DNA of 28,780 bases from a virus. The translations under genes and the position numbers were made by a program. Positions 3,801 to 24,666 of the stretch are shown one piece after another. Below the pieces are notes generated by a model, which saw only the letters and a program-made list of their open reading frames with translations, was not told where the DNA came from and searched no databases. The stretch's first letter is position 1. Each line of letters starts with the position of its first letter. The stretch covers positions 1-28,780 of the IMG/VR virus record IMGVR_UViG_3300020109_000105; one strand, written 5' to 3'.

Positions 3801-5703
3801 ATATTGGTTCGGGTCTACCCAAAAAAGTATTGTCTTGCCATCTCGCTTGGTTGTTTTCACTAATCTTTAAATCGTATGGTGGAAACCACATAACCCTACC
3901 CCCATTGTTACCTCTTTCACAAAATGGTAAATCATTGTATGTAAATCCTGGTGTATTTGATGTTCTCCATGCTAAGTTTTCAATTGAAAACATATATTTT
4001 TTAGCATAAAATCCATCACCCGTTCCGACACCGTTTGGTGTTTCAAATATATTTGTTGAGTTTTTAGACCCAAATGAATTTTTAAAACTATTTTTTGCAT
4101 CATAGTTTCCGCTTGATATAGGTGCAATATTAATATTATACGGTCTACTATCACCACCCATTACACTATCATCGAACTTTCTAATATTAGCGGTTCTTTT
4201 CATTGTATCTGAATAGTTCATATAGGACCTATCTTTAGTCCAAACACGACAATATTCAGCTCCTGTTTCTTGTTTATACTTATCAACAAACTTAATTGCG
4301 GAACCTCGTGACAACATACTATCACCCTCTTTAAAGATTCTACTGGTTTGGTCAATAACGTTACCAACATGTGTTCTTGTTGCTTGACCATCTTTAGGCA
4401 TTGAATCCAATATTTCTTGAGTTTTACCTAAAATTGAATCTTCTCTAAATCCGTATTTTGTTGAAATTGAATTGTTATAATCGTTACTTTCTCTTGATTG
4501 GAATTCCTCGTTCCATAATCCAATCTTATTCTTTGAGTTTTTACTAATCCACGTAAGTTTACCACTAATTGGTCCACCTTGGGAAATATTTCTTTGTCTC
4601 TCAAATAAAGCGGCTTGTACCGGGTCAAACATTAAACTTAAGAAGTAACTACTTTTAACCATGTTGTCATTAAAATCTGACATAGTATATTTTACGTCTT
4701 CCGCTCTATCGTCTCCAATATAAGCAACACCTTTTGGTGCTTCAAGTCCTAAAAAGTTTTTAATTCCACCGGCAACATTGTTTGCAAAATTAAAAAGTTT
4801 TGATGATTGTTGTGACCTTGCTGTTGTTGTGTAATTTGGTGCGTATGTTGAATATGATAATTGGTCAAACAAAATTTGTTTCTGACCCTCACCTAAGTAT
4901 TCAACCATTAAGTCAGATGGTTTTCTACCTAATTTTGGTCTTCTTTGAATACCAACTAAACTACCTAAAACACCTGTTACATCTTGTAATATCGCACCCG
5001 CTTCGGTTTTTGGTGTCGGTCTATTTACAATAGGGTTTCTTGGGTTGCTTAAATAATCTCCTGGTATTTCACTAAATGGAAATTCAATACCCGCAACCGT
5101 TTGGAGAAAATCTACACCTTTACCTAATAAACTTTTAGCAACAGTAATTTTATAGTTTTTTTCAATTAGAGGTTCTCTTCCTGTAACTATGTTTATCGCT
5201 GTTGCGATGTTACCATCCAATGCGTCAAGTATTCTAGCCCTACCTAAAGTTGCTGATTCTAAATTTTGTTGTAGTCTGGCTAATACAGGACCTTGTTTGT
5301 TTTCTCTAATATTTTGTGTAGCAAATTTCATTAACCTCGAATCGTCATCGAAGTTTTGACCCGCCATAATACTAACTAAATTAGTTGTTTGGGGTTCAAA
5401 CGAATTAATATAACCCGCAGATAAAATACCACCATTTAGTTGTGATAAAGTTGGTAAAGACGTGTTTGTGTATTCCTCAATAGTGCTATTTGGTGGAATA
5501 TATAGGTTAATAAAATTTTGACCAAAGTATACCGACCAATTTGTTTTAACATCACCAGGGTCAACATTAGCAAAATTGTTTAGATTTTGAACAACGTAAT
5601 TTGTATCAGTAAACGTTTGAGGTCCATTGGGTCTGTTTAGGGTTTTTGAAATTAAAAAATCTCTAAACGCTTTGGTAGTATTAAAATCTAAATATGTTGG
5701 CAT
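856..5703 (-). CDS. Giant baseplate / tail-hub structural protein (1615 aa)
   Basis: This is the largest gene in the window. Two regions resemble tail-tube-like modules. Around residues 629-655 a FLGRPEPIYTYQDTSRSG stretch is followed by a LSFKV strand, a pattern seen in tail-tube-initiator-type proteins. Around residues 1139-1205 a PPPVCVLRIGDFYHSKIVI stretch, then a short acidic segment and a VTLSINFIGG strand, resembles the N-terminal tube domain of contractile injection system LysM proteins. A Pro-rich linker (PDTPTPQPPITK) lies just before it. No signal peptide or membrane helix was seen. The C-terminal ~400 residues are helical and Lys/Glu-rich. It follows the tape measure and is coupled to the LysM gene, so a baseplate hub or tube-initiator role is likely. 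Such proteins are usually several separate genes, so this may be a fusion. ATG at 5703 is chosen because a TATTTAT promoter-like motif lies just upstream. Confidence 0.8.
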   Translation of the reverse strand: MPTYLDFNTTKAFRDFLISKTLNRPNGPQTFTDTNYVVQNLNNFANVDPGDVKTNWSVYFGQNFINLYIPPNSTIEEYTNTSLPTLSQLNGGILSAGYINSFEPQTTNLVSIMAGQNFDDDSRLMKFATQNIRENKQGPVLARLQQNLESATLGRARILDALDGNIATAINIVTGREPLIEKNYKITVAKSLLGKGVDFLQTVAGIEFPFSEIPGDYLSNPRNPIVNRPTPKTEAGAILQDVTGVLGSLVGIQRRPKLGRKPSDLMVEYLGEGQKQILFDQLSYSTYAPNYTTTARSQQSSKLFNFANNVAGGIKNFLGLEAPKGVAYIGDDRAEDVKYTMSDFNDNMVKSSYFLSLMFDPVQAALFERQRNISQGGPISGKLTWISKNSKNKIGLWNEEFQSRESNDYNNSISTKYGFREDSILGKTQEILDSMPKDGQATRTHVGNVIDQTSRIFKEGDSMLSRGSAIKFVDKYKQETGAEYCRVWTKDRSYMNYSDTMKRTANIRKFDDSVMGGDSRPYNINIAPISSGNYDAKNSFKNSFGSKNSTNIFETPNGVGTGDGFYAKKYMFSIENLAWRTSNTPGFTYNDLPFCERGNNGGRVMWFPPYDLKISENNQARWQDNTFLGRPEPIYTYQDTSRSGQLSFKVVVDHPSILNLLVRELFKGMSEEESENYINAFFAGCKELDFYELIRRFTQLDTNDIKLIQSLLNQGQDPETIKQYKVTTEYPTETTPTNTTTQGNEADSKPVDEVIIKLKYENDRPGPSLDLDTTKNYTELYDDYKGQKQAYIDELGAALNTLTGLSQTDTQVKTEKSFIFGDANHVITQSDIDAQKTKIGDYFDQADVSFNKYVSSLNSLISDISGKTAETIRFQILSSCSSVATNDYNERLSLRRSHSVIQDIFDRLSAVGGKKEWQIKWPENLNLVNKDNSENDKEIIQQGQPIVILKEYNTKDFGFEHDTKIIVESVNYGETLTGTQPDKDCVNKDFVRVPKLKQYSPIAFYCRQTAMSLKYNNKSEKKQPDTPTPQPPITKIEENGQVVVNPPTRKPAIDPLKRIIAKTLSECFYFKKLEETDPIVFSSLKEKLKYFHPAFHSTTPEGLNARLTFLQQCIRPGDTIPIKGISEESDVRARNTAFGPPPVCVLRIGDFYHSKIVIRDVNISYDDGGQILFDLNPEGIGVQPMIASVTLSINFIGGQGLSKPVERLQNALSSNFFANTEMYDERSIATNETIGGRNAEEFTREFLADLNKTYTNAINKNNQSQNTKNVKDGNYMGTLDGNSIKYTDIIKSVFTSTESYFDKYQDTYNKVYTKYGKDITALLFKGEYRPINQYDIYTSTSPTPGKTLSLLGLYKKTQELTVYTSGLKTGLANFLNDSSSTYLVNMVEFDKEMTGSILTDTNVKLKDFITKEIIENKINELTDSTQILDELEKSRNQLISDLDRVNFVIKNGKDSTVQDSIVKSVAISGFTSDLLYNEYSTCVDYIETNAPKLVDGLSTNITFLNPTIQSADFEFMMKQLLFDKVEAFISELKDPLLYKDHLKNQLKKRLNKFVEKPEEQKFKLTKFKKRKSDKEIKFGISSTTDETNQTIIDEANQIFSTSNEVTDKLNYYRPQ

Positions 5704-5731: not shown

Positions 5732-7693
5732 TTAATTAAATTGAGGTGGCAAGGTAAAAGATGTGTAATCTAATTGTGAAGGTGTAACCGTTTGACGCAT
5801 TTCATTTACCACTGATGGACTTTTATACATTTCCCGAACAACCGCATCCAAAACAGGACCATTTGTTTTAAAGTTATGTTCGTGTTTATAATTAACCACT
5901 GCGGCCGTTTGATTTGAGTTTTGATTATTGGTATTACCTTTTAATTTATTTTCCAAATCAGATTCACTTACACCCATACTTTTAGCAACCAAAGCTTTAG
6001 CGGGTGCAACTGCTTCACTAACCATCTTAGAAAATAACTCTTCGTCCGTTTTTTGTAACCCACCTAAACTTGTTTTTTCTTTTAAATTTTCAGATAACTC
6101 TAACCCTTCAATGTATTTGTCAAATTCAGCTAAAGGTTGTCTTATTGTCGCGGCCGCTTGTACCTTAGCAACTGTTAATAATGCACTTATGTCTTTTTGC
6201 ATATTTTGGGTTGCGGTATATTGGTCTCTTGCAATATCTTCAACAGACATATCTTCAAAAGCTTTTTGGTTCTCTAATAAACCTTTTGCAATTGTTGGAC
6301 TTAATTCATCTAATGCAACTTTAGTATCCTGCAATCCTAATTCTTTTGCCAAGGATTGAGGGATGTCAATAACCATTCTACCACCCTCCATTTTAGAGAT
6401 GTTGGTTAAGAACTCTTTTTCTTTTTCGTCAATTTGTAGACCTGATGATAACAACGCGGTTGCTGCTGACGACCTTTCCGCAGCTTTGATTGCGGTTTTA
6501 GACATCTCTTCCATACTCATACCCATTTGGTCCGCTAATGCTTTAGATTTTCTAAGATTAGCTCCTGTGATTTCAAACCTACCTAATTCAGTATTATATG
6601 TGGCTAATGAACCTGCAACACCTATCATAGCATCTTGTAATCCACCAGCATCGTTGGTCGCCATATACATTAATTTTAATGGGTCATTAAAGTCACCAAT
6701 AGCGCCTCCTATAGCTTGTAATTCAGCAGATAACGCAATTGCTTGGTCCGGGTCAAAAAGTTTTTCCGCCATTGTTTTAACCTTTTCAATATTCATATTA
6801 AATTCAATAGACTTCTGAACCATTCTGGTTAATCCCTCAACACCATTTTTAAATCCAATGGTATTTAATTTGTCCATATTAGCACCAACATCCGCCACTA
6901 CTTTTCTTGCATTTAAACCAAGAGTTAATGAACTTTTACCCGCTTTGTCAATTTCTTTGATTGCATCTTTTGCACCAATACCTATTTTGTCAAAACTATC
7001 TAACGCGGCACCCAATCTATATAAATCACCATAAAATGCTCTTGCTGTTTTTTGAGATTCTTGTAAAACATCTTTACCGAATGTTGTCATCTTACCAGTT
7101 TGTTCAACCATTTGTACTGAATAATCTTTCACATCCTCAAAACTAAATCCCATGGCGGTTGCGGCTGGTAATGTTTCAAATATATTGTTTCTAAATTGTC
7201 TCGATAATTCACCGGTTAAACCAAGTTCAGAATTAATTTTATTTCTTAATTCCACTTCTTGTTTTTGTATTTTTTCCAATTCTTTACCGAGAAAAGACAC
7301 CATTTCACTAGTTCCTTTAACACCTAATTGAACCATAAAATCAGGTAGATTTTTTGATTCTCTCGCTATTTTACCTATTGTTTCAGATATGGTGCTAAAT
7401 TGAAATACAGTATCTTTTTGTAATGATAATGATGAAACAGGATTTGAATACCCTAAGTCCGCAATGTCTTGTGTTTTTAGTAAGTCGGTTGCATAAGACG
7501 CTGTTTTACTACCCGCACCTCCTGTGTTCCCTCCGCTTGATGGTTCTTTTTGGTTATAAAATGACCAATAATCATCTACTTTACCCATTAAAGAACTATT
7601 ATTCTGTACTGATTGCAATTTTAAGAACTCGTTTTTGAATTGAGTATAATTTAAACCTGCTCTTAGTTTGGATACCTCTTCATTAATTGTCAT
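5732..7693 (-). CDS. Tail tape measure protein
   Basis: This 653-residue protein is mostly helical, with long amphipathic stretches (for example residues 140-330), a central small-residue segment (LQAIGGAIGDFNDP) and a Gln/Asn/Gly-rich N-terminal patch near residue 50. That composition, and its place directly after the tail-assembly-chaperone pair and before the baseplate genes, is the classic tape measure position. Tape measure proteins set tail length and are carried inside the tube. At roughly 1.5 angstroms per residue, a known rule of thumb, this length would give a tail near 100 nm, similar to T4. No peptidase or lysozyme domain is visible. ATG at 7693 follows an AATATTTATAG motif by only a few bases. 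Confidence 0.8.
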   Translation of the reverse strand: MTINEEVSKLRAGLNYTQFKNEFLKLQSVQNNSSLMGKVDDYWSFYNQKEPSSGGNTGGAGSKTASYATDLLKTQDIADLGYSNPVSSLSLQKDTVFQFSTISETIGKIARESKNLPDFMVQLGVKGTSEMVSFLGKELEKIQKQEVELRNKINSELGLTGELSRQFRNNIFETLPAATAMGFSFEDVKDYSVQMVEQTGKMTTFGKDVLQESQKTARAFYGDLYRLGAALDSFDKIGIGAKDAIKEIDKAGKSSLTLGLNARKVVADVGANMDKLNTIGFKNGVEGLTRMVQKSIEFNMNIEKVKTMAEKLFDPDQAIALSAELQAIGGAIGDFNDPLKLMYMATNDAGGLQDAMIGVAGSLATYNTELGRFEITGANLRKSKALADQMGMSMEEMSKTAIKAAERSSAATALLSSGLQIDEKEKEFLTNISKMEGGRMVIDIPQSLAKELGLQDTKVALDELSPTIAKGLLENQKAFEDMSVEDIARDQYTATQNMQKDISALLTVAKVQAAATIRQPLAEFDKYIEGLELSENLKEKTSLGGLQKTDEELFSKMVSEAVAPAKALVAKSMGVSESDLENKLKGNTNNQNSNQTAAVVNYKHEHNFKTNGPVLDAVVREMYKSPSVVNEMRQTVTPSQLDYTSFTLPPQFN

Positions 7694-7697
7694 ATCT

Positions 7698-7704
7698 ATA
7701 AATA
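7698..7704 (-). promoter_or_regulatory. Late-type promoter motif before tape measure gene
   Basis: The minus strand reads ATAATATTTATAGATATG, with TATTTAT at 7698-7704 and the ATG of the tape measure directly after. It lies just after the stop codon of the chaperone second ORF. Confidence 0.35.
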
Positions 7705-7848
7705 TTATTTAGGAGCGTTTTCTAATTCAATAATATACTCCACGTAATATCTACGTATGAAAACGGGCATGGTGATAATATCACCATAACTAAAACCTCT
7801 TTTGATTAAAAATAAAATTTCATCTAACTGTCCTTTCTTATAAGCCAT
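7705..7848 (-). CDS. Tail assembly chaperone second ORF (frameshift extension candidate)
   Basis: This short ORF encodes MAYKKGQLDEILFLIKRG, then a segment with a Met-Pro and an R-R-Y-Y motif (MPVFIRRYYVEYII), 47 residues from ATG at 7848. The frame is open farther upstream, with a possible TTG at 7887. The 'helix, F-S-Y-x-D-I, x-M-P-x-x-x-R-R' pattern is typical of the short C-terminal pieces of phage tail assembly chaperones. It overlaps the end of the 249-residue gp26-like gene in another frame and sits directly before the tape measure, the canonical place of the lambda G/GT pair. It may be made only as a frameshift fusion (about 293 residues) rather than from its own start. The ATG has no good ribosome binding site. 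Confidence 0.6.
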   Translation of the reverse strand: MAYKKGQLDEILFLIKRGFSYGDIITMPVFIRRYYVEYIIELENAPK

Positions 7849-8587
7849 AGAAAGGGCGAAAAAACTCAACCCCGAACCCAATTTCAACTTGGGTGTCTTC
7901 TCCTGACGGGGTTTTTACTGTTTTTGTTAAATCTAATCCTGGTTTATTTTCTTTTACAAATTTTTTGAAATCTTGGGAATCTTTGATTGGTAATCTTTCC
8001 ACAAAATTGTGAATATTCATCATATCCTTGTTTCCTGCAACAGATTTAATCATCATTTCTAATTGTTTTGTCACGATAGGTGCAACACCTTGACCGTTCC
8101 AACTTCTTTTTAAATCATCAAGTTCTTTTTCTTGTTTTGGTGTTAAAAATTTAAATGTAATTTGAACTTTTGATTTTTCCATAAAATATGGGTATTCACC
8201 ATTCGAATCGCATTCTAAATTAAAATCTTTGAATTTTAATTCACTCATATCAACAGATACTTCAAATTCCTTTTCGGTTTTAGGGTCTGTTAAATAGAAT
8301 TTATATTCAGGACCGAAAGCGGTGTTTCTTAAAAATATTAATACCGCTTGTCTATCTTCTTCAACAATATCTTCAATTTGAATATCTCTATCCAAAATTT
8401 TTCTTTTTAATAATTCATCTATTACACCATTCGAGGCAATAAGATTTTGAGCTGATAATATATTTTCATCGGCGGCTGTTAAATACGCAACCTTGAGTGA
8501 TTTCTTTTTATTTTGATAGTGTATACCTCTTGAGGGTAGTTCAACAACATCATATGCAATTGTTGGGTCAACTCTAAATTCTTCCAT
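7838..8587 (-). CDS. T4 gp26-like baseplate / tail assembly protein (chaperone first ORF)
   Basis: The 249-residue product resembles the T4 base plate protein family (gp26/gp51-like). Near the N-terminus VVELPSRGIHYQNK matches the 'L-P-S-x-G-x-x-Y' opening, followed by LTAADENILSAQNLI, then RDIQIEDIVEEDRQAVLIFLR and a following G-P-E-Y. These are the conserved landmarks of the family. The C-terminal half is charged and helical. In tailed phages the gene between the tail tube and tape measure encodes the tail assembly chaperone that coats the tape measure, so that role is inferred from position. Its last codons overlap a second ORF in the +1/-2 frame, and the overlap contains a run of six U in the mRNA. 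ATG at 8587 is the natural start, and a terminator for the tail tube gene lies upstream. Confidence 0.75.
   Translation of the reverse strand: MEEFRVDPTIAYDVVELPSRGIHYQNKKKSLKVAYLTAADENILSAQNLIASNGVIDELLKRKILDRDIQIEDIVEEDRQAVLIFLRNTAFGPEYKFYLTDPKTEKEFEVSVDMSELKFKDFNLECDSNGEYPYFMEKSKVQITFKFLTPKQEKELDDLKRSWNGQGVAPIVTKQLEMMIKSVAGNKDMMNIHNFVERLPIKDSQDFKKFVKENKPGLDLTKTVKTPSGEDTQVEIGFGVEFFRPFYGL
7853..7867 (-). promoter_or_regulatory. Candidate programmed frameshift site in tail assembly chaperone gene
   Basis: In the mRNA sense the overlap reads GAG UUU UUU CGC CCU UUC, with the six-U run at 7859-7864. Slipping one base forward at UUU-C, or two bases back, would join the gp26-like protein after residue 243 to the downstream ORF, giving about 293 or 294 residues. 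CGC is expected to be a rare codon in so AT-rich a genome and could pause the ribosome. The zero-frame stop codon lies 18 bases farther on. Frameshifting here is common in tailed phages, usually -1, with -2 in phage Mu. Confidence 0.45.
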
Positions 8588-8627
8588 ATTTTTTATTTTA
8601 TAACTAGTATAGTTTACGAAAACTTTT

Positions 8628-8661
8628 AAAAAAAGTAAAGGTCTCCTTTTGAGAGACCTTT
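8628..8661 (-). terminator. Rho-independent terminator after tail tube gene
   Basis: A perfect 9-bp stem, AAAGGTCTC at 8637-8645 and its complement at 8653-8661, encloses a 7-base loop. Read on the minus strand the stem is followed by a run of seven T (8628-8634). It lies 25 bases past the stop of the tail tube gene and before the gp26-like gene, so it can raise tail tube output relative to the genes downstream. Confidence 0.8.
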
Positions 8662-8686
8662 TATTGACAGATTTTTTATTATTTGA

Positions 8687-9175
8687 TTAGTAAACTAAAA
8701 TACATCTATCCATTCTTAACGAACATGTGATAGATGCAATATCATCTCTTGAATAATCAAGTTCGTTAAAGTTTAAGTCGGTTATGAAAGAACCTTGAAG
8801 TATCCATTTTTCAACCACAACCCCCGTTGGGTCTAACATCTCTAATTCAATATCCTTTTTATAACCAGCTGCGTAACCCATACGACCTGTTACTGATTCG
8901 GCGTGTAGACGGAACCATTCCATCAACGCTTGTGACGCTGAAGGACCAATTGGGTCTTTGAAGGTTACTCTTATTTCACTCCATTCAAATCTACCAGCAA
9001 CATATGTTGAGGTGTTTATAAAAGGAATTGCAACTGAATTTATTTTTGCGCTTGGTCTTGCACTTGATGTTACATACCATTCATTTATTCCTAATGATGA
9101 AGGAAATCTAAGTATGAATCGGTTAACTCTTTTCGGTTCGTAAGGAACCGGCATTTTCATTAATAAATCTGCCAT
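8687..9175 (-). CDS. Tail tube protein (T4 gp19-like)
   Basis: The 162-residue product has the size (T4 gp19 is 163) and layout of a T4-type tail tube protein. It opens with basic and Pro-rich residues (MADLLMKMPVPYEPKRVNRF), then an alternation of beta strands including FEWSEIRVTFKDPIGPSASQ, followed by LMEWFRLHAESVTGRMGYAAGYKKD, and a closing ELDYSRDDIASITCSLRMDR. Stacked hexamers of this protein form the inner tube through which DNA is ejected. It sits downstream of the sheath but is separated from it by a terminator and a 348-base noncoding block, and it has its own promoter-like motif and terminator, as expected for a very abundant virion protein. Identity is by strong motif recognition. 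Confidence 0.92.
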   Translation of the reverse strand: MADLLMKMPVPYEPKRVNRFILRFPSSLGINEWYVTSSARPSAKINSVAIPFINTSTYVAGRFEWSEIRVTFKDPIGPSASQALMEWFRLHAESVTGRMGYAAGYKKDIELEMLDPTGVVVEKWILQGSFITDLNFNELDYSRDDIASITCSLRMDRCILVY

Positions 9176-9298
9176 GTCAATATTTGTTTTTTATTTTTTT
9201 TATTTTTAATCTTTCTTATAAATATGTTGTATATGAAAAAACAAAAAAAATCTTCTCAATACTTGATTTTGTGAAAATTATTTCGTATTTTTTCCATA
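9176..9298 (-). promoter_or_regulatory. Tail tube 5' leader and promoter region
   Basis: This AT-rich stretch leads into the tail tube gene. On the minus strand it contains ACATATTTATAAGAAAGA, with the TATTTAT core at 9218-9224, 43 bases before the ATG. The leader that follows is almost pure A and T with no Shine-Dalgarno sequence, as is common in Bacteroidota. The motif matches those before other transcription-unit heads here. Confidence 0.5.
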
Positions 9299-9395
9299 CT
9301 AGTACTAGATGCTAGTAAATTAAGAACTAGATTAAAGAAACTAGAATAACTAGAAAGAAATAAACTAGATAAAAATAAACTAGAACTAGAACTAG
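9299..9395. repeat. Array of ten CTAG sites (AACTAGA-type repeats)
   Basis: CTAG occurs ten times in 97 bases, at 9299, 9305, 9312, 9327, 9341, 9350, 9365, 9380, 9386 and 9392. Most copies are extended to AACTAGA, and the last three form a direct hexamer repeat of AACTAG. Successive spacings are 6, 7, 15, 14, 9, 15, 15, 6 and 6 bases. CTAG is normally rare in bacterial and phage DNA. Stops occur in all frames, so it is not coding. It could be an iteron-like protein binding array, but no function is known. Confidence 0.85.
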
Positions 9396-9474
9396 AATAC
9401 TGGTGCATATACTGGGTAATTTATAATTTTATTTTTTTTATATTTAGTAGTTCCGTAGGTCACACTATATTATA

Positions 9475-9492
9475 ATGTTCCACGTGGAACAT
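9475..9492. promoter_or_regulatory. parS-like centromere palindrome
   Basis: ATGTTCCACGTGGAACAT is a perfect 18-bp palindrome with no loop. Its core GTTCCACGTGGAAC is a known form of the bacterial chromosomal parS site bound by ParB/Spo0J, close to the consensus TGTTTCACGTGAAACA. A perfect palindrome without a spacer is a poor hairpin, which favours a protein-binding site. It sits between the CTAG array and the sheath terminator. No parA or parB gene is visible in the window, so any ParB would have to come from the host or from elsewhere in the phage. Confidence 0.65.
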
Positions 9493-9498
9493 AAAATA

Positions 9499-9522
9499 GG
9501 GAGGGTTTCCCCTCCCCTTTTT
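9499..9522 (-). terminator. Terminator after tail sheath gene
   Basis: A GC-rich stem, GGGAGGG at 9499-9505 with CCCTCCC at 9510-9516, closes a 4-base loop that reads GAAA on the minus strand, a stable GNRA-type tetraloop. It lies directly after the sheath stop codon, with A-rich sequence before and T-rich sequence after in the minus sense. A T-run also follows on the plus strand, so it could act in both directions. Confidence 0.8.
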
Positions 9523-9523
9523 A

Positions 9524-12379
9524 TTAGATATCATCAAATGATGCTCCTGTTGGTGTAATTATGAACTCAACATCTATGAATTCTAGAGCTCTTGTTGGTT
9601 TGATATAAATCTTACCTCTCAAAGTATTAGAGTCAATGTCTTCTGGGTCGTTGGAAACCGTAACACGGAATTCATATAAACCCCTTTCCCTTTTAATTGC
9701 ATCTAATATTGGGTTAACCAATCTCAAGAATTCATTACGAACTTGTTCGTCATTTTGTTCGAATAACAATCTTACCGCTACTGCCGAAATTAATTTTCTA
9801 GCCCTTAACAATAATCTTCTTACGTTAATTCTATCCAACGCCGATTCACGAATTTGAAGGGTTTTGTTACCCCATATAATTGTGCCGGTATCTGCGTATG
9901 TTGCTATTGGGTTAATTCTAGCTTTGTATAGGTCATCTCTTTCATCTAAAGTTAATTTCTTAACCGCTTTAATTGAATTTACTAATCCTCTTGAATAACC
10001 CGCTACCGCAAACCAAGGGAAAGATACGTTATCGGTTAACGCAATATTTCTTAAAACTTCACCAGTTGGTGGTAGATATATTTGTACGGCGTTGTCTACG
10101 TCTCTAACTTGAATCCAAGGCCAATAAACAGCTGAATAATTACTATCAATCGACACACCGTCCAAAGCGTCTATTACTTCATCCGCAGTACTGTAGTTTG
10201 GTGGTGAAATTACGTAAAGAGAATCCGCTCTATCGTCTTCAATCATATCAATTGCATATGACGTTAAAGAACTATTGTCATAGAAGTTAATACCCGGTGT
10301 TGCAAAAATGTTTATATCAACTGATTCAGGATTTGAGAAGGTGTCAATACCTTGGGCGTAAGCGTAGTAATCAGAGTTTCCCGATACCGTGCTAAACACG
10401 CCTCCATTATTGGTATTACCACTTGTGTAAGTGTTTTTACCAAAGATGAATCCATCACCGTAGGTTCTCACATTTCTATAGATATCCCAACCATCAAATC
10501 CTCCAGCAGCGGTAAAAGTGAACTTACGATAATTGATGTTTGTCAATACGTTACTAACTCCACCTGTTTGACCCTCTAAATCATACGATGTAGTTAAGAA
10601 AGTTGTTCCTGTGATTGTAGACGCGTTTGTTGATAAGTGGAAACCCTTAGTCGTACCAGCCGCTGAAGTTCCTTTGAATTTAAATAAGTCCCTATCGTAT
10701 GTTACTTTATTGGTTGGACTTGATAAACCAAAGTATGTTTTTCTCACTTTATCACCTGAAGATAAAACCGGTGTTCCATCTGCGAGATAAGATTCGGTAT
10801 CACCAGCATTAAAGAATGTAGTTTTGTAAATCACAGAACCCAAAGTGTCTGAACCGAAAGTACTGTTATTCGGGAATCCTTTAAATCCGGCGGGATATGC
10901 GTCAACGGGGTGATTATCAGACATTAACAGCATAATGTATTTTGAACGTATTTCATATTCACCATCGGATGTACCAACCTTTTTAGCCACATAATTAGGT
11001 AAATCTGGATTCATACTACATCTACTAAATTTTTCAAGTACGACAATATTATTGTCTGTATCGTTAAAATCTCTAACAATTAAGTCAAAGTCACCCGTGT
11101 CTATATTGATATTAATAATAGAAATTTTTACCTCAAAGTTCGCTGCGTCCCCGTCTGATATTGTAATTACATCAAATAAATCATTGACTTCACCACCTCT
11201 TACTTCAGAAACAACAGTTGGTGATATTGGAGTATCATAAGACGTTTTAAAGTCATTACCAACAGTTTCATAAGATTCTGTTAAGCTTAAACCTCTAATA
11301 TATCCTTCTTCATAAGCTCTTAACAAATAATTTGGATAAGCTTCAAATACATAAATAGGAACGTCACCTTTTAATTTGTCATAAACATCTGTACCAAATA
11401 CTTTTGTTACATATTTTGATGACGACGCATCCATACTACAAGTAAATGATTTTGCTCCGCTCGTTGAACCTGTAATATTCACTGTAAATTCAGCTAAAGG
11501 ATTTGTAGTAATTCCTGAACCTGTCACAATGAAATTAGCATTCCCCGTGGACTCTAAGTTTAAAGTTTGTTGGCTGTAAGAGCCTCTTGGTCTGAACGCT
11601 AAAACAACCTGATTATTATATGCCGTATTGAGTGTTGCGTTGTAGGTGAACTTAGTCACATCAAATCTACTTGCACCACTGTTGTATACAAATAAGTAAG
11701 AATACACTTCAGAACCCGCGGAATTTACTAAAACATTATACCATTCCTTATTGTTATTATTATTTGCGTTATTTAAACCTGTTAGAGGAGAAAGTTCTTC
11801 AAGTGATGCGGTTTGACCAGAGGTTTGTGAAGTTGGTACTTCACCCATAACAAACCACTCTCCATGATTAGATGATGTGTTACCACTAAAGTTTGCCACA
11901 ATATAATCTGTAATATAATTTCCATCTACAGATATTTTATCTGATAGTTCACTATAAATCGTACTTGCCGTGATTGTTGTGGTCTGTGCTGACATTGTTA
12001 AACCCGTGGTTGTACCACTAAGCGATTCCAATATAACACCAGCAATTGTCTTAACCCCGTAAGTTTTAACAGGTAAGTAACCCGTTAAACCCAATATTTT
12101 TGTTACAAATAATTGGTTTGATTCTTCTAAATAAGATTTTGCAAAATAAGGTAATTCATATTTTGGGTTATTGTTGTTGTCTTTTAAGGGACTTGTTCCT
12201 CCAAAATATGACTTGAATTCGTCAAAATTAGTTATTAATAAAGGTTCAAAAGCGGGACCCTTTAAGGTTTCACCCACCAAACCTAATGTGCTGACACCAA
12301 CACTTTGTGCCACGAATGTTAAGTCTTTTTCGGATGTGTATACACCCGGAGATACAAAAACTCTATTTGAATTTGCCAT
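9524..12379 (-). CDS. Tail sheath protein (T4 gp18-like), enlarged
   Basis: The 951-residue protein starts with the hallmark sheath opening VFVSPGVYTSEKDLTFV, then GVSTLGLVGETLKGPAFEP and an ITNFDEFKSYFGG segment. The C-terminus has the conserved contractile core, including GVNSIKAV-type helices (RGLVNSIKAVKKLTLDERD), RINPIATYADTGTIIWGNKT, RINVRRLLLRARKLI and FRVTVSNDPEDIDSNTL. These regions form the sheath core that drives contraction and ejection. T4 gp18 has about 659 residues. The extra ~290 lie in the middle, roughly residues 130-650, and are rich in Gly, Ser, Thr and Asn, probably outer-surface domains. It has its own promoter-like motif upstream and a strong terminator downstream, as suits a very abundant protein. 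Confidence 0.95.
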   Translation of the reverse strand: MANSNRVFVSPGVYTSEKDLTFVAQSVGVSTLGLVGETLKGPAFEPLLITNFDEFKSYFGGTSPLKDNNNNPKYELPYFAKSYLEESNQLFVTKILGLTGYLPVKTYGVKTIAGVILESLSGTTTGLTMSAQTTTITASTIYSELSDKISVDGNYITDYIVANFSGNTSSNHGEWFVMGEVPTSQTSGQTASLEELSPLTGLNNANNNNNKEWYNVLVNSAGSEVYSYLFVYNSGASRFDVTKFTYNATLNTAYNNQVVLAFRPRGSYSQQTLNLESTGNANFIVTGSGITTNPLAEFTVNITGSTSGAKSFTCSMDASSSKYVTKVFGTDVYDKLKGDVPIYVFEAYPNYLLRAYEEGYIRGLSLTESYETVGNDFKTSYDTPISPTVVSEVRGGEVNDLFDVITISDGDAANFEVKISIININIDTGDFDLIVRDFNDTDNNIVVLEKFSRCSMNPDLPNYVAKKVGTSDGEYEIRSKYIMLLMSDNHPVDAYPAGFKGFPNNSTFGSDTLGSVIYKTTFFNAGDTESYLADGTPVLSSGDKVRKTYFGLSSPTNKVTYDRDLFKFKGTSAAGTTKGFHLSTNASTITGTTFLTTSYDLEGQTGGVSNVLTNINYRKFTFTAAGGFDGWDIYRNVRTYGDGFIFGKNTYTSGNTNNGGVFSTVSGNSDYYAYAQGIDTFSNPESVDINIFATPGINFYDNSSLTSYAIDMIEDDRADSLYVISPPNYSTADEVIDALDGVSIDSNYSAVYWPWIQVRDVDNAVQIYLPPTGEVLRNIALTDNVSFPWFAVAGYSRGLVNSIKAVKKLTLDERDDLYKARINPIATYADTGTIIWGNKTLQIRESALDRINVRRLLLRARKLISAVAVRLLFEQNDEQVRNEFLRLVNPILDAIKRERGLYEFRVTVSNDPEDIDSNTLRGKIYIKPTRALEFIDVEFIITPTGASFDDI

Positions 12380-12407
12380 TTTTAAATTGTTTGGTTAATT
12401 AATTTTA

Positions 12408-12430
12408 TTTCTTTATCAATAAATATCTTT
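12408..12430 (-). promoter_or_regulatory. Late-type promoter motif before sheath gene
   Basis: On the minus strand this reads AAAGATATTTATTGATAA, with the core TATTTAT at 12419-12425. It is identical over 18 bases to the motif before the gp13-like gene on the other strand (18173-18190 region), which argues for a shared regulatory element rather than chance AT richness. Confidence 0.55.
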
Positions 12431-12502
12431 GTTTTTAGCAAAGATTCCCTTGATTTTTTTAAAAATGGTACTTATGGATACTAATTTATACTTTAATATC
12501 TA

Positions 12503-12509
12503 TATTTAT
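12503..12509 (+). promoter_or_regulatory. Late-type promoter motif before small RHH-like gene
   Basis: The sequence TATATTTATCTTTATC ends directly at the ATG of the 58-residue gene. It has the TATTTAT core in the sense orientation. The region 12380-12516 between this gene and the sheath is a divergent promoter region. Confidence 0.35.
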
Positions 12510-12516
12510 CTTTATC

Positions 12517-12693
12517 ATGAAAAACTCCTCGAAAAATATAAAGGTTAGTGAAAATCATCATAAAATGTTAAAAGAACATTGCGATAAAAATGGATTAAAA
12601 ATTTACAAGGTTGTTCAAAAATGGATTGATGAGTTTTGTAAAACAGGAAAGGTGAATGATTCACCTAAGAAAAAAGACCTATACGGGGATTAA
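12517..12693 (+). CDS. Small ribbon-helix-helix-like protein (58 aa)
   Basis: This small ORF lies in what would otherwise be a 324-base gap. It encodes 58 residues with a strand-like IKVSEN start, helix HHKMLKEHCDKNGLKI and helix YKVVQKWIDEFC, then a Lys-rich tail ending KKKDLYGD. A short beta strand followed by two helices, and a 'x-V-S-E-x-x-H-x-x-L-K' opening, is the layout of Arc/MetJ/CopG DNA-binding proteins. It is on the plus strand, opposite to both flanking structural genes, is convergent with the gp15-like gene (10-base gap) and divergent from the sheath gene. It could be a phage regulator of nearby late genes. The fold call is by eye from a short sequence and is tentative, but the ORF is well supported by its composition and promoter motif. 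Confidence 0.6.
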   Translation: MKNSSKNIKVSENHHKMLKEHCDKNGLKIYKVVQKWIDEFCKTGKVNDSPKKKDLYGD

Positions 12694-12703
12694 TTGAATA
12701 TTA

Positions 12704-14698
12704 TTAAGCACCATTTGTTGAAGACGGTGTTGGAGTAACAGATGGTGTAGGAGTAACACTTGGAGTAACAGATGGTGTTATCGATGCACTTACTGATGGG
12801 GTAAGAGAACTTGTTGGGGTCACAGATGGCGTTGGGGATGGTGGGGTGACTAAATCAATTTGCAACGTATCATTATCACCGATACTTTGAGTTAAAATAT
12901 ATGTTTCAGTGTTCGGTGCATTACCGGTATATCCACTTATTAGGTGACCATTTTCATAAACACGTAGAACATATCCGGTTCCACCAGTAATCGAGACAAA
13001 CAAAAAATCACCAGCAACGCTTGAATTAATAAACGCGTTTTGACTTACCCCATATAAAATAGGAAATTCAAAGTTCCACATAGCCGAAAAACTACTACCA
13101 AAAGATGATATTACAGAACCATTAGTATTAGTATTTGTAAACAATAAATTTCTGAAAGGCGTGGGTGTTGGTGTTAATGTTGGAGTTGGGGTTGGGGTTA
13201 ATGATGGAGTTAATGATGGTGTTGGTGTTATTGATGGTGTAATAGAAGGGGTAATTGTTGGTGTAACAGATGGTGTCATGGATGGTGTGGTAGATGGCGT
13301 TATCGACGGTGTGACTGAACTAGTTTGAGTTACAGAAGGTGTAATTGATGGTGTTGGTGTTATCGACGAACTTACTGATGGGGTAATAGAACTTGTTGGG
13401 GTTACTGACGGAGTTAATGATGGTGTTGGCGTTATCGACGAGCTTACTGATGGGGTAATAGAACTTGTTGGGGTTACTGACGGAGTTAATGATGGTGTTG
13501 GCGTTATCGACGAACTTACTGATGGGGTAATAGAACTTGTTGGGGTTACTGACGGAGTTAATGATGGTGTTGGTGTCGGTGTTGGAGGTATCGTAAAAGT
13601 TGATTGGGTGATTACATCGTACCTATATTTTGTTTTTCCAATTGTATCGACTTCAATGGAACCAAAAGTGTTTGTTTGTGTTAAATTACTAAATGTACCA
13701 TCAATAGTATATTGAGTGGTTCCACTATATTGATTTGATTCAATAAAAATTTTCACTGGTATACTTATAGAACTACCAGTAACCGTCGATAACGTATCTG
13801 TAAAAGATATTTCAACGGTTTTATCCACTTTTTTAGTTGATGTTGCAGTGTATTGTGCAATGATTGAACCACTTGAGTAATTTGATGATATAGTTATTAT
13901 ATTTTCAGATTTATCGATTGATGGTATACTTCTTAAATCAGGTTCAATCATCGTTATACTTCTATTTACCGCTGGTGAAACTTCGAACTCCTCATCATCA
14001 ATTAGAAACCCTAACATTGTAAATCCATAATTTTGAACGTAGAATCTTCTACCATCCAAGGTGTCCATTGGGGTATTATCTTCAATTCTATCTAACACGA
14101 TTGGAATGTAGTGTCCTTTCACTCGGGTGTATCCCTGACGAGACGAAAACTTTTGTAAAACCTTTTGATTGAATTTATTTATGTCTCTAAATTTTGTACA
14201 GACAATTGTTACATCAAAACTAATGTCAACCGCAATTGGTTGAGGGATTTTATAGATATCAGCACCCATTTGGTTTCCATCCCAAGTTGGAACCGAAGCG
14301 TAAAAGAAATCTCTTCTATCAGGGATGGTTCTTTGAATTGATGGATTAGTACCTAATTGAACTTCAGGTTTTCTTACAACCGCGATAAACGGTAATTTAA
14401 TATTTCCATCTTCATCACTAAAAGACCAATTATTGGTGTATTCACCCCACCTTTGAATTGTTAAAATTTTTGGAATCATAGGTATTTGGTCACCATCGGA
14501 AATTACTTTGAAATTTTCTTTCACAAATTCCAACATACCTAAATCAAGGTCGTCATGTAATATTGAATCAGGAAGGAATGTGTCAGATTTTATAATTTCT
14601 TCTAACAATTCTTTTCTTCTACCCATTATTGCAGGACCATCGGCGTTTTGGTTTGCGCCATATACTTTAATATCTTTTTTTCTTTTTGGTAATCCCAT
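12704..14698 (-). CDS. gp15-like tail terminator / neck protein with Pro-Thr-Ser repeat stalk
   Basis: The 664-residue protein is modular. Residues 1-240 carry beta strands and helices ([17 protein letters not shown], then [22 protein letters not shown] and [18 protein letters not shown]) that resemble the T4 gp15 tail-terminator fold, and the place between neck and sheath genes fits. Residues ~250-370 look like an Ig-like beta domain. Residues ~373-515 are Pro/Thr/Ser repeats ([18 protein letters not shown]), including three near-identical 24-residue units. Residues ~518-622 form another beta-rich domain, and the last ~40 residues are again Pro/Thr/Ser-rich. The start lies 2 bases after the stop of the preceding gene, so they are coupled. 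The repeats probably make an extended stalk exposed at the neck. The gp15 assignment is moderate; the repeats are certain. Confidence 0.65.
13160..13580 (-). repeat. Low-complexity Pro/Thr/Ser coding repeat with 72-bp tandem units
   Basis: The GGGGTAATAGAAC block recurs at 13380, 13452 and 13524, exactly 72 bases apart. The three units are nearly identical at the DNA level, with only about one difference seen (A/G in the GACGAACTTAC segment), and encode a 24-residue unit of the [18 protein letters not shown] type. More diverged copies continue to about 13160. The 72-bp period keeps the frame. Array length can vary by slippage or recombination. Confidence 0.9.
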
Positions 14699-22944: not shown

Positions 22945-24666
22945 TTAGTAAATTACAATATAGTTAGGGCATGGGTCAAACACAGAGTTAATTGTTACTG
23001 ATACAAGATTTTCACCAGGTATTAACGAATTGATATTAACTTGTTTGTGATGCTGGTTTGTTGACATAACTGTCGTAGCGTTTGCTGTCCCACCTAAACT
23101 ACCCAAAACACTAAAGTTTATTGTGACATTACATAACGCTTGTGCTGGTATTGTATGACCGCTGTCTTCCCATAAATGGAAATCTGCGTTATTATTATTC
23201 AATCTAACCCCCGTTAAGTATTGGGTTGTTATAGAAGTAGATGTCGGGGTTGGAGTGGGAGTAGGAGTCGCAGTTGGTGTAATTGAAGGAGTCGGTGTAG
23301 AGGTTGTTGTTAAAGAGGTCATACTATCAATACAATCTGTGACACACTCAGTTATATTATAATATGGTTTAGTGGATACTAAATAATTGTGACTAACTCT
23401 AACAAAATTTAATGGTTCTTCATAGTATCTAATTCTTTTATAATTAAAACATGAAATTCCCATATTATGTATTCCTCCCGAATATTGGGTACCACCCGCC
23501 CACGATTGAATCATAGGTTGATACCCCCTTGTTGAGGGTATAACTTCCTCCCACCCTTTTAATTTATATATTGTTCTACCATTTAAGTAAATTTTCAAAG
23601 TACCCACTCTTCTTCCTCTTTCTAAAGCCCATTTTTTATTTAAAACTTCAATGTCTTCAAATGTTGGGGTGGCTCCGGTTAACCAATCACTAATTGCGGT
23701 TGTAAGTGTTCGTCCAGTAATTAAATCGTTCCAACCACCATCATTTTCTATTCTACAATCTGTATAATATTTGTCTCTTTCAAAAGAAATTGTGATATTA
23801 AAATCATTTGACGTTCCGTCTGTACATAAAACAGGTGTTTGTCCTGAGGAAGTATAAAAGGTTTCGGTGAATCCGCTATTTGTTACACATATTCCCGAAT
23901 ATCTAATTGACCTCCATTGTATTCTACCATCATTTGTAAATGAAAATGATAAATTATTATCGGCATAATCTAATAAATCGTTCTCACCACGAACACCTAA
24001 ATAATAAATAGTTCTACCGCTTATCCAATCTAAACCATTTCTATTTAGTACTAGGTCAATAGTCCAACCTTTTTCTGTTCTTCTATGTACTTTATATGAA
24101 CAGTTATCAGCGCCGGCACCGTGGTTAATTTGATAAGCCCATGGTTTCGCTTCGGGTATGGAATCTTGAGGGCAACAATTATCTGTATCGGCTAATTTAG
24201 CGACACAAGCGTAAGACGCTCCCGTTATTCCTGTTGTGAAACCTGAAGTGTTGAGTGAAAATGGGTTTGAAATTGAATTATTGTATCCGTTATTCCTCAA
24301 ATAGTGAGTATTACTATAAAGTTTGTAAGAGTATACGTCGTTTTGTAAAATAATATCTGAATTTCCTAATGTGTTGGTAAACGCCGAGTAACTTAAAGTC
24401 CAAGTTAATGCAGAATACGTGTAACCACTGTCATTCACACTATTGTTATACTCAATTAAAGATATCGTATCTCTAACGCAATCAGTGTTTTGTAGCGATG
24501 TTGTATTAATTGTTAGTGCGGTATAAGTTATGGCGGTATTTAAATCTAAAACTAATTCATCATAGTCGTCTTGAGTTTTTGATATTTCATAATCATAGTA
24601 CTCCGATGAATCTAATTGTAAATCTAACCTACTACCATAATATTTGAGTATGTTTTGACTATTCAT
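22945..24666 (-). CDS. Lectin/jelly-roll-like virion surface protein with Pro-Thr linker
   Basis: The 573-residue protein has a beta-rich body (residues 1-~455) and a Pro/Thr/Ser linker (SITPTATPTPTPTPTSTS), then a C-terminal ~100-residue beta domain starting TGVRLNNNNADFHLWEDSGH. In the body, GWTIDLVLNRNGLDWISG, SFSFTNDGRIQWRS and GTLKIYLNGRTIYKLKGWE resemble concanavalin/LamG-type jelly-roll strands that bind sugars. There are many Cys residues (for example DNCCPQD). It likely sits on the virion surface as a fibre or decoration protein with a host-binding role. It has its own late-type motif (GATATTTATAG) and is followed by two small coupled genes. The lectin fold is a judgement by eye. Confidence 0.6.
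   Translation of the reverse strand: MNSQNILKYYGSRLDLQLDSSEYYDYEISKTQDDYDELVLDLNTAITYTALTINTTSLQNTDCVRDTISLIEYNNSVNDSGYTYSALTWTLSYSAFTNTLGNSDIILQNDVYSYKLYSNTHYLRNNGYNNSISNPFSLNTSGFTTGITGASYACVAKLADTDNCCPQDSIPEAKPWAYQINHGAGADNCSYKVHRRTEKGWTIDLVLNRNGLDWISGRTIYYLGVRGENDLLDYADNNLSFSFTNDGRIQWRSIRYSGICVTNSGFTETFYTSSGQTPVLCTDGTSNDFNITISFERDKYYTDCRIENDGGWNDLITGRTLTTAISDWLTGATPTFEDIEVLNKKWALERGRRVGTLKIYLNGRTIYKLKGWEEVIPSTRGYQPMIQSWAGGTQYSGGIHNMGISCFNYKRIRYYEEPLNFVRVSHNYLVSTKPYYNITECVTDCIDSMTSLTTTSTPTPSITPTATPTPTPTPTSTSITTQYLTGVRLNNNNADFHLWEDSGHTIPAQALCNVTINFSVLGSLGGTANATTVMSTNQHHKQVNINSLIPGENLVSVTINSVFDPCPNYIVIY

Follow-up and report, generated by a model that had tools for sequence, protein, structure and literature searches.

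A parS-form palindrome between the tail sheath and tail tube genes of a T4-like phage lineage, kept by its relatives as at least one half-site

The window, i.e. the whole stretch of 28,780 nucleotides that was analysed (IMG/VR record IMGVR_UViG_3300020109_000105), encodes a tail sheath protein (9524..12379, minus strand; PHROG 23, E 3.9e-59, with Pfam sheath domains above the cut-off), a gp19-like tail tube protein (8687..9175, minus strand; PHROG 4542, E 2.5e-24, with Pfam gp19 at 4.8e-05, below the cut-off) and a T4-type baseplate protein (7838-8587). These genes confirm the T4-like tail context proposed by an earlier, sequence-only reading of the same DNA. The sheath and tube genes are separated by a gap of 348 bp containing an 18-bp perfect palindrome, ATGTTCCACGTGGAACAT (9475..9492). 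The earlier description of this gap as the only gene-free stretch has to be corrected: it is the longest one without a listed open reading frame, but another, of 305 bp, is located at 12399-12703. Along the minus strand the following elements are arranged successively: the sheath stop codon, a GC-rich terminator-like hairpin, the palindrome, an AT-rich stretch, a CCAG/CTAG array, the motif TATTTATA and the tube ATG. Elsewhere in the window, the protein encoded at 12704-14698 contains long repeats and that at 22945-24666 a short TPTPTPT stretch; in a 288-kb relative, an extreme GC skew (-0.74) at 110-120 kb perhaps reflects repeats like those of the former protein.

The hairpin (GGGGAGGGG AAA CCCTCCC; 9499..9517, minus strand), recognised from the sequence and its folds and followed by a T-rich tract, is terminator-like and may end the sheath transcription unit. 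In relatives, the stretch between the sheath stop and the counterpart of the palindrome folds below -6 kcal in 68 of the 68 cases (among 84) in which the stop was found. The motif TATTTATA (9217..9224, minus strand) lies about 45 nt upstream of the tube start and resembles a late promoter, although it differs from the T4 late promoter consensus, TATAAATA. All six copies in the window, this one and five others, are placed directly upstream of minus-strand genes, and TATTTATW was found in 107 of 107 distinct tube-upstream regions of the family (median position -47, among the matches listed). In the 288-kb relative, TATTTATA stands within 60 nt upstream of a same-strand ORF start in 31 of 60 cases, against 7 of 60 for its complement; the motif appears to behave as a strand-specific promoter element. 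Given this promoter-like motif and the order of elements on the minus strand, the palindrome most likely lies between two transcription units, roughly 200 bp upstream of the late-promoter motif.

The array of CTAG/CCAG boxes (CYRG; 9299..9416, minus strand), delimited by box positions and by the folds of relatives, also holds CTGG, and its outer arms CCAGTAT/ATACTGG can pair in several relatives. Its unusual character, already pointed out before, is real, as the 288-kb relative, with 146 CTAG in the record, has a single cluster of this kind (9 within 150 bp, at most 2 elsewhere). For the array, RNA z-scores average -1.86 in 102 of the 107 regions (the other five being too short) and are below -2 in 43 per cent, which is no more than suggestive. 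The palindrome and the array are adjacent and each occurs once in the 288-kb record, which, together with the AT-rich spacer and the pairing arms in several relatives, would suit a single-copy replication origin or packaging site formed by both. Such a role is very unlikely, however, as no clear GC-skew switch is seen at the site (the skew in the 288-kb relative is dominated by the strongly skewed 110-130 kb region and tells little about an origin) and 22 relatives with enough sequence have no palindrome beside the tube gene.

The ParB/parS system is the bacterial chromosome's own segregation device. The window carries a 16-bp palindrome, TGTTNCACGTGNAACA, which is letter for letter the chromosomal parS form TGTTCCACGTGGAACA as printed in the available parts of PMC5450999 and PMC7022226; the earlier claim of a known parS form at the core is thus upheld. 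The full site consists of two inverted GTTCCAC half-parS arms, both intact. It is the sole match to ATGTTCCACGTGGAACAT in the window at up to three mismatches (0.03 expected). The exact 18-mer occurs in at least 120 stretches in IMG/VR, whereas three control palindromes matched in base composition, two of them with identical arms, gave 2, 6 and 0. A chance origin of the palindrome was rejected on the basis of these control counts, the window match expectation and the conservation within the family.

Relatives were collected by searching the tube protein three times in IMG/VR, which gave, counting the window, at least 228 sequences matching the tube. After exclusion of 18 with less than 200 nt upstream, the remaining 210 yielded 107 distinct upstream regions, of which up to 420 nt each were examined. 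Among the matches listed, the element (up to three mismatches to TGTTCCACGTGGAACA) is present in 84 of the 107 regions, window included, 234-338 nt upstream of the tube start. The distribution of mismatches has a clear gap, with 84 regions at three or fewer, one at five and 22 at six or more, one of the latter (L224) having only 227 nt and being too short to judge. Gain and loss of the element amount to about 7 changes on the tube-gene tree. Twelve larger records were searched whole; seven of them (52-310 kb) contain exactly one site within one mismatch of GTTCCACGTGGAAC, always upstream of the tube gene, and the other five contain no site within two mismatches of it. At two mismatches to the 14-bp core the large records yield a few additional sites, but a reversed control pattern matches them at this level as well, which marks it as background. 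Two relatives deserve mention: in L013 the palindrome is extended to 24 bp, and in L075 the sheath and tube genes are parted by an inserted SGNH-hydrolase-like gene (identified by eye; 4116-4751) that runs on the opposite strand and whose start adjoins the parS-like site. The latter is one case where the site stays on the tube side, cut off from the sheath gene.

The refuting condition named by the sequence-only reading applies by half: most relatives with the flanking genes lack the perfect palindrome itself, but a variant of the element occurs in 84 of the 107 regions. The perfect 16-mer is carried by 7 of the 84 elements, where independent columns predict 8.6, and the strict core by 15 of the 84, rising to 34 with positions 7 and 10 also freed. 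Compared with GTTYCACGTGRAAC, the 107 regions show no mismatch in 15, one in 56, two in 13, three in 1 and four or more in 22. The central CG is retained in 61 of the 84 elements and missing in 23. The parsimony changes at positions 1-16 are 11, 3, 9, 0, 5, 2, 1, 3, 14, 12, 2, 4, 0, 1, 3 and 21, respectively; the flanks take 9-21 and third codon positions within the tube gene 11.1. Nine positions (G2, T4, C6, A7, C8, G11, A13, A14 and C15) have just 0-3 changes each, the variation of the left arm falls mostly on positions 1, 3 and 5, its three most variable ones, and positions 9 and 10 of the right arm, with 14 and 12 changes, evolve at the flank rate. Since the strict core is found in only 15 of 84 elements and perfect copies are no commoner than independent columns predict, the full palindrome is not what is kept by selection, though most copies are one step away from it. 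Judged by these alignments, the perfect palindrome of the window is one allele of a degenerate element.

These counts bear directly on the notion of a bona fide full parS, i.e. a centromere and clamp-loading site served either by a partition system that the phage encodes beyond the window or by a host ParABS in plasmid-like maintenance. The perfect window copy, the 24-bp palindrome of L013 and the 71 of 107 regions within one mismatch of GTTYCACGTGRAAC speak for it, and a marine phage family described below shows that strict parS can persist in phages. However, few elements have the strict core, perfect copies are as frequent as independent columns predict, the relatives neither keep the central CG throughout nor confine their changes to positions 1/16 and 5/12, and half-parS sites gave only narrow ParB peaks of at most 0.6 kb in the available parts of PMC7022226. 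The ParB_N domain (PF02195), and with it a parB gene of a phage-encoded ParABS, was found neither in the 12 tube-family records nor in the window, records that are possibly incomplete. A phage centromere is consequently unlikely, and the full parS is the least probable of the explanations considered here; neither a partition system encoded outside the window nor a full clamp-loading centromere as the conserved function, both suggested earlier, finds support.

What the family retains is a single arm. At least one intact GTTYCAC is present in 81 of the 84 elements: the left arm only in 42 (e.g. TGTTCCACAAGGAACC), the right only in 24 (e.g. TGCTCCACGTGGAACA), both in 15 and neither in 3 (e.g. TGTTCTACGTAGAACA), so that the left arm is intact in 57 and the right in 39. 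Arm states changed about 12 times per arm on the tube-gene tree. In simulations of independent arms on this tree, which was built on one short gene, a mean of 14.1 elements had both arms broken (1st percentile 5), as against the three seen (P 0.003). The cut-off of three mismatches biases against doubly broken sites; just one sequence lies between three and six mismatches, and with this five-mismatch sequence added both arms are broken in 4 of 85. With one representative per 95-per-cent tube-gene cluster, the figure is 3 of 55, versus 8.7 under independence. Extra GTTYCAC/GTGRAAC heptamers within 40 nt of the element were identified in 12 of the 84 regions (mononucleotide shuffles gave 0.55, and never more than 4 in 200 rounds) in three arrangements: direct, inverted-overlapping and distal. 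The 23 regions without the element contain no GTTYCAC heptamer in the last 330 nt (227 nt in the case of L224). Selection within the clade thus retains one intact half-site or more and not a full parS.

The same arms, transcribed, could form an RNA hairpin (GUUCC-ACNN-GGAAC) that would follow the sheath gene and act as an additional terminator, an attenuator or a processing signal. The element does follow the terminator-like hairpin and its T-run, within 6 nt in 40 of 84 regions, and the 5-bp stem is intact in 57 of 84 elements in the sense and 71 of 84 in the antisense orientation, with 93.3 per cent of cells paired compared with 26-58 per cent after sliding of the partner, a contrast to be expected of near-palindromes in general. 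The covariation test, performed on 21 hand-chosen family sequences, with stem breaks counted on all 84, revealed no covarying stem (the score was reached by 141 of 500 shuffles), and C.A breaks occur at pair 3-14 in 20 of the 84. Moreover, in the minimum-energy RNA fold of the window the left arm is paired to a GGAAC further downstream and the hairpin of the palindrome itself is not formed, the inserted gene of L075 parts the element from the sheath gene, and same-arm palindromes with other centres are rare among viral contigs. Rfam models gave no hit in the window up to an E of 1. A single retained arm would be useless for a hairpin and sensible for a DNA-binding dimer, which makes the RNA reading improbable.

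Published binding data, as given in the available parts of the sources, allow the retained unit to be compared with ParB sites. In the Burkholderia site parSc1, symmetrical changes abolish ParB binding except at 1/16 and 5/12, binding is still high after the one-arm changes T1G, T1A, T3C, T3A and T5A, and a single arm gives intermediate binding (PMC5450999). The variable positions 1, 3 and 5 of the phage left arm are ones at which parSc1 tolerates the one-arm changes just named. The half-parS heptamers GTTCCAC and GTTTCAC are occupied by the ParB of Pseudomonas aeruginosa (PMC7022226), and five other ParBs bind them as well, whereas four bind weakly and for nine no binding was seen (PMC7022226, PMC10419367). 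The ParB of Bacillus subtilis is reported to lack half-parS binding. The biological relevance of half-parS binding is an open question in the ParB field (PMC7022226).

The distribution of the 18-mer outside the tube family was also analysed. Of the 120 listed stretches, 11 belong to the tube-family set; outside it, a simple ORF test places 65 of 105 distinct occurrences among the matches listed between genes, compared with 20 per cent of random positions. ParB_N was detected in 3 of 50 records outside the tube family, hand-picked from the 120 stretches, and some 18-mer contigs in IMG/VR may be host or prophage DNA. Three contigs (L109 at 6307-10458, L125 and L167) contain 3-5 exact 18-mers within a few kilobases, mostly between small genes, and are reminiscent of repeated operators or stoperators.

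A second, marine phage family (L099 and its relatives L478-L557; also L092, L107, L119, L122 and L142), named by its terminase large-subunit gene from the annotation of DNA matches, carries parS before that gene. Of its 80 listed loci, 76 were analysed (four with a short upstream part were omitted by hand), and de-duplication in two ways after dropping those below 90 nt gave 72 and 67 regions. Among the 67 distinct upstream regions, 35 hold the strict GTTYCACGTGRAAC, one has a single mismatch and 31 have four or more. The strict sites vary at 1/16 and 5/12 and are represented by TGTTTCACGTGAAACA and TGTTCCACGTGGAACA, one or two per record, their order being swapped between members. Some are located just downstream of a sigma-70-like promoter, as judged by eye. 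ParB_N was found in none of 12 marine records chosen for having the site, each with one or two sites, and sites of this type are absent from the stretches examined of the annotated relatives HTVC027P and 023Pt_psg01. This pattern of substitution is the one expected of a parS selected by ParB, an indication that strict parS sites are kept by phages in which no ParB was detected. The tube family of the window represents a relaxed, half-site version.

As to the possible source of a ParB, several Bacteroidota carry TGTTCCACGTGGAACA among the matches listed, and four Bacteroidota genomes chosen for carrying the 16-mer possess 1-5 parS-form sites and one ParB_N gene each, the 16-mer never being on the contig of the ParB_N gene. 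We know of no test of half-site binding by a Bacteroidota ParB. The host search found no relatives of the tube protein in cellular genomes, and no named phage relatives were found by DNA. Among named phages, the tube protein comes closest to that of Microcystis phage Mel-JY01 (41.8 per cent), followed by the Flavobacterium phages immuto at 36 per cent and Rhodothermus phage RM378 at 34 per cent; over part of the tube, 43.3 per cent is reached by an uncultured phage record. Bacteroidota as host are only a guess. That the binder is a host ParB is something we infer, since cellular genomes gave no pointer to a host and Mel-JY01, the closest named phage by its tube, has a cyanobacterium as host.

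Taken together, the exact parS form, the half-site kept in 81 of 84 elements, the strict parS of the marine family and the four Bacteroidota genomes with ParB_N make recruitment of host ParB a serious reading, and to this extent the interpretation offered by the sequence-only reading stands, its full centromere and phage partition system excepted. The palindrome would be a DNA docking site of the parS/half-parS type, probably for host ParB, to which we assign a probability of about 45 per cent. The binding protein, of ParB type and provided in trans, would most likely be the chromosomal ParB of the host and would recognise the GTTYCAC half-site, positioned between the sheath terminator and the tube late promoter; the window copy with both arms, as a complete parS, would in principle be able to load the ParB clamp. 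The effect would be docking, with the phage DNA tethered to the host segregation and condensin machinery or ParB titrated, or a local one at the tube promoter, rather than partition. Several results argue against docking: the central CG has disappeared from 23 of the 84 elements and positions 9 and 10 change at the flank rate, where symmetrical changes in parSc1 abolish binding (PMC5450999, available parts); 23 of 107 regions have neither element nor half-site (L224 being too short to judge); half-site binding is reported for only some ParBs in the available parts of PMC7022226; and the nearest named tube match, a Microcystis phage, does not favour Bacteroidota.

The main rival of the docking site is an operator for another dimeric regulator, of phage or host, reading GTTYCAC and acting on the tube late promoter or the CTAG array, one arm being enough. 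All DNA-level evidence, namely conservation, the arm rule and the extra half-sites, fits such an operator equally well, and a half-site-tolerant dimeric regulator of GTTYCAC specificity would leave the same trace. The site is separated from the first CCAG box by 30-34 bp in 63 of 84 regions (60 in the window, for which reason no helical phasing of element and array is claimed), it precedes the promoter motif by the distance given above, and in L075 it stands directly before the inserted, oppositely oriented gene. An operator of this kind requires a coincidence with both the chromosomal parS form and the published half-parS heptamers, and it is considered possible but doubtful.

The docking site, if true of both families, would have a wider meaning. 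At least two phage families that differ in their signature genes, both apparently without ParB, would maintain parS or half-parS sites of host type, selected for at a constant intergenic position, and in the infected cell the host ParB CTPase would be tethered to the phage genome or loaded on it; this general proposal, drawn from comparative sequence data, is put forward tentatively and as rather less probable than its opposite. No report of parS sites in ParB-less phages was recognised among the open-licence PMC papers listed. If phages keep such sites but not the proteins, they would parasitise or titrate the host segregation and condensin-loading machinery, and the rule of at least one half-site would be natural evidence that half-parS binding matters biologically.

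The window site shares with chromosomal parS (TGTTCCACGTGGAACA in Pseudomonas, TGTTTCACGTGAAACA in most species) the 16-mer, the intergenic place and the few copies per genome. However, the two differ: the site of the window belongs to the tail operon of a phage in which no ParB gene was found, the central CG or one arm is missing from many relatives, and chromosomal parS forms an origin-proximal cluster whereas the phage has one site. The phage-plasmids P1 and N15 are likewise phage genomes with a ParB site, but they encode their own ParAB and a parS site of different sequence, whereas no ParB_N was found in the window family. The conserved unit of the phage family is the same heptamer as the half-parS of P. 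aeruginosa, in either orientation and sometimes with extra copies. In the host chromosome, according to the available parts of PMC7022226, such sites number hundreds, and only 15 per cent of the enriched ones are intergenic with initiation signals; in contrast, the phage family keeps its unit at one fixed intergenic place. The marine terminase family is similar in being a phage family with no ParB_N in 12 chosen records and with a fixed intergenic place. It differs in that its 14-bp core is strict in 35 of the 36 site-bearing regions, whereas the family of the window keeps only half.
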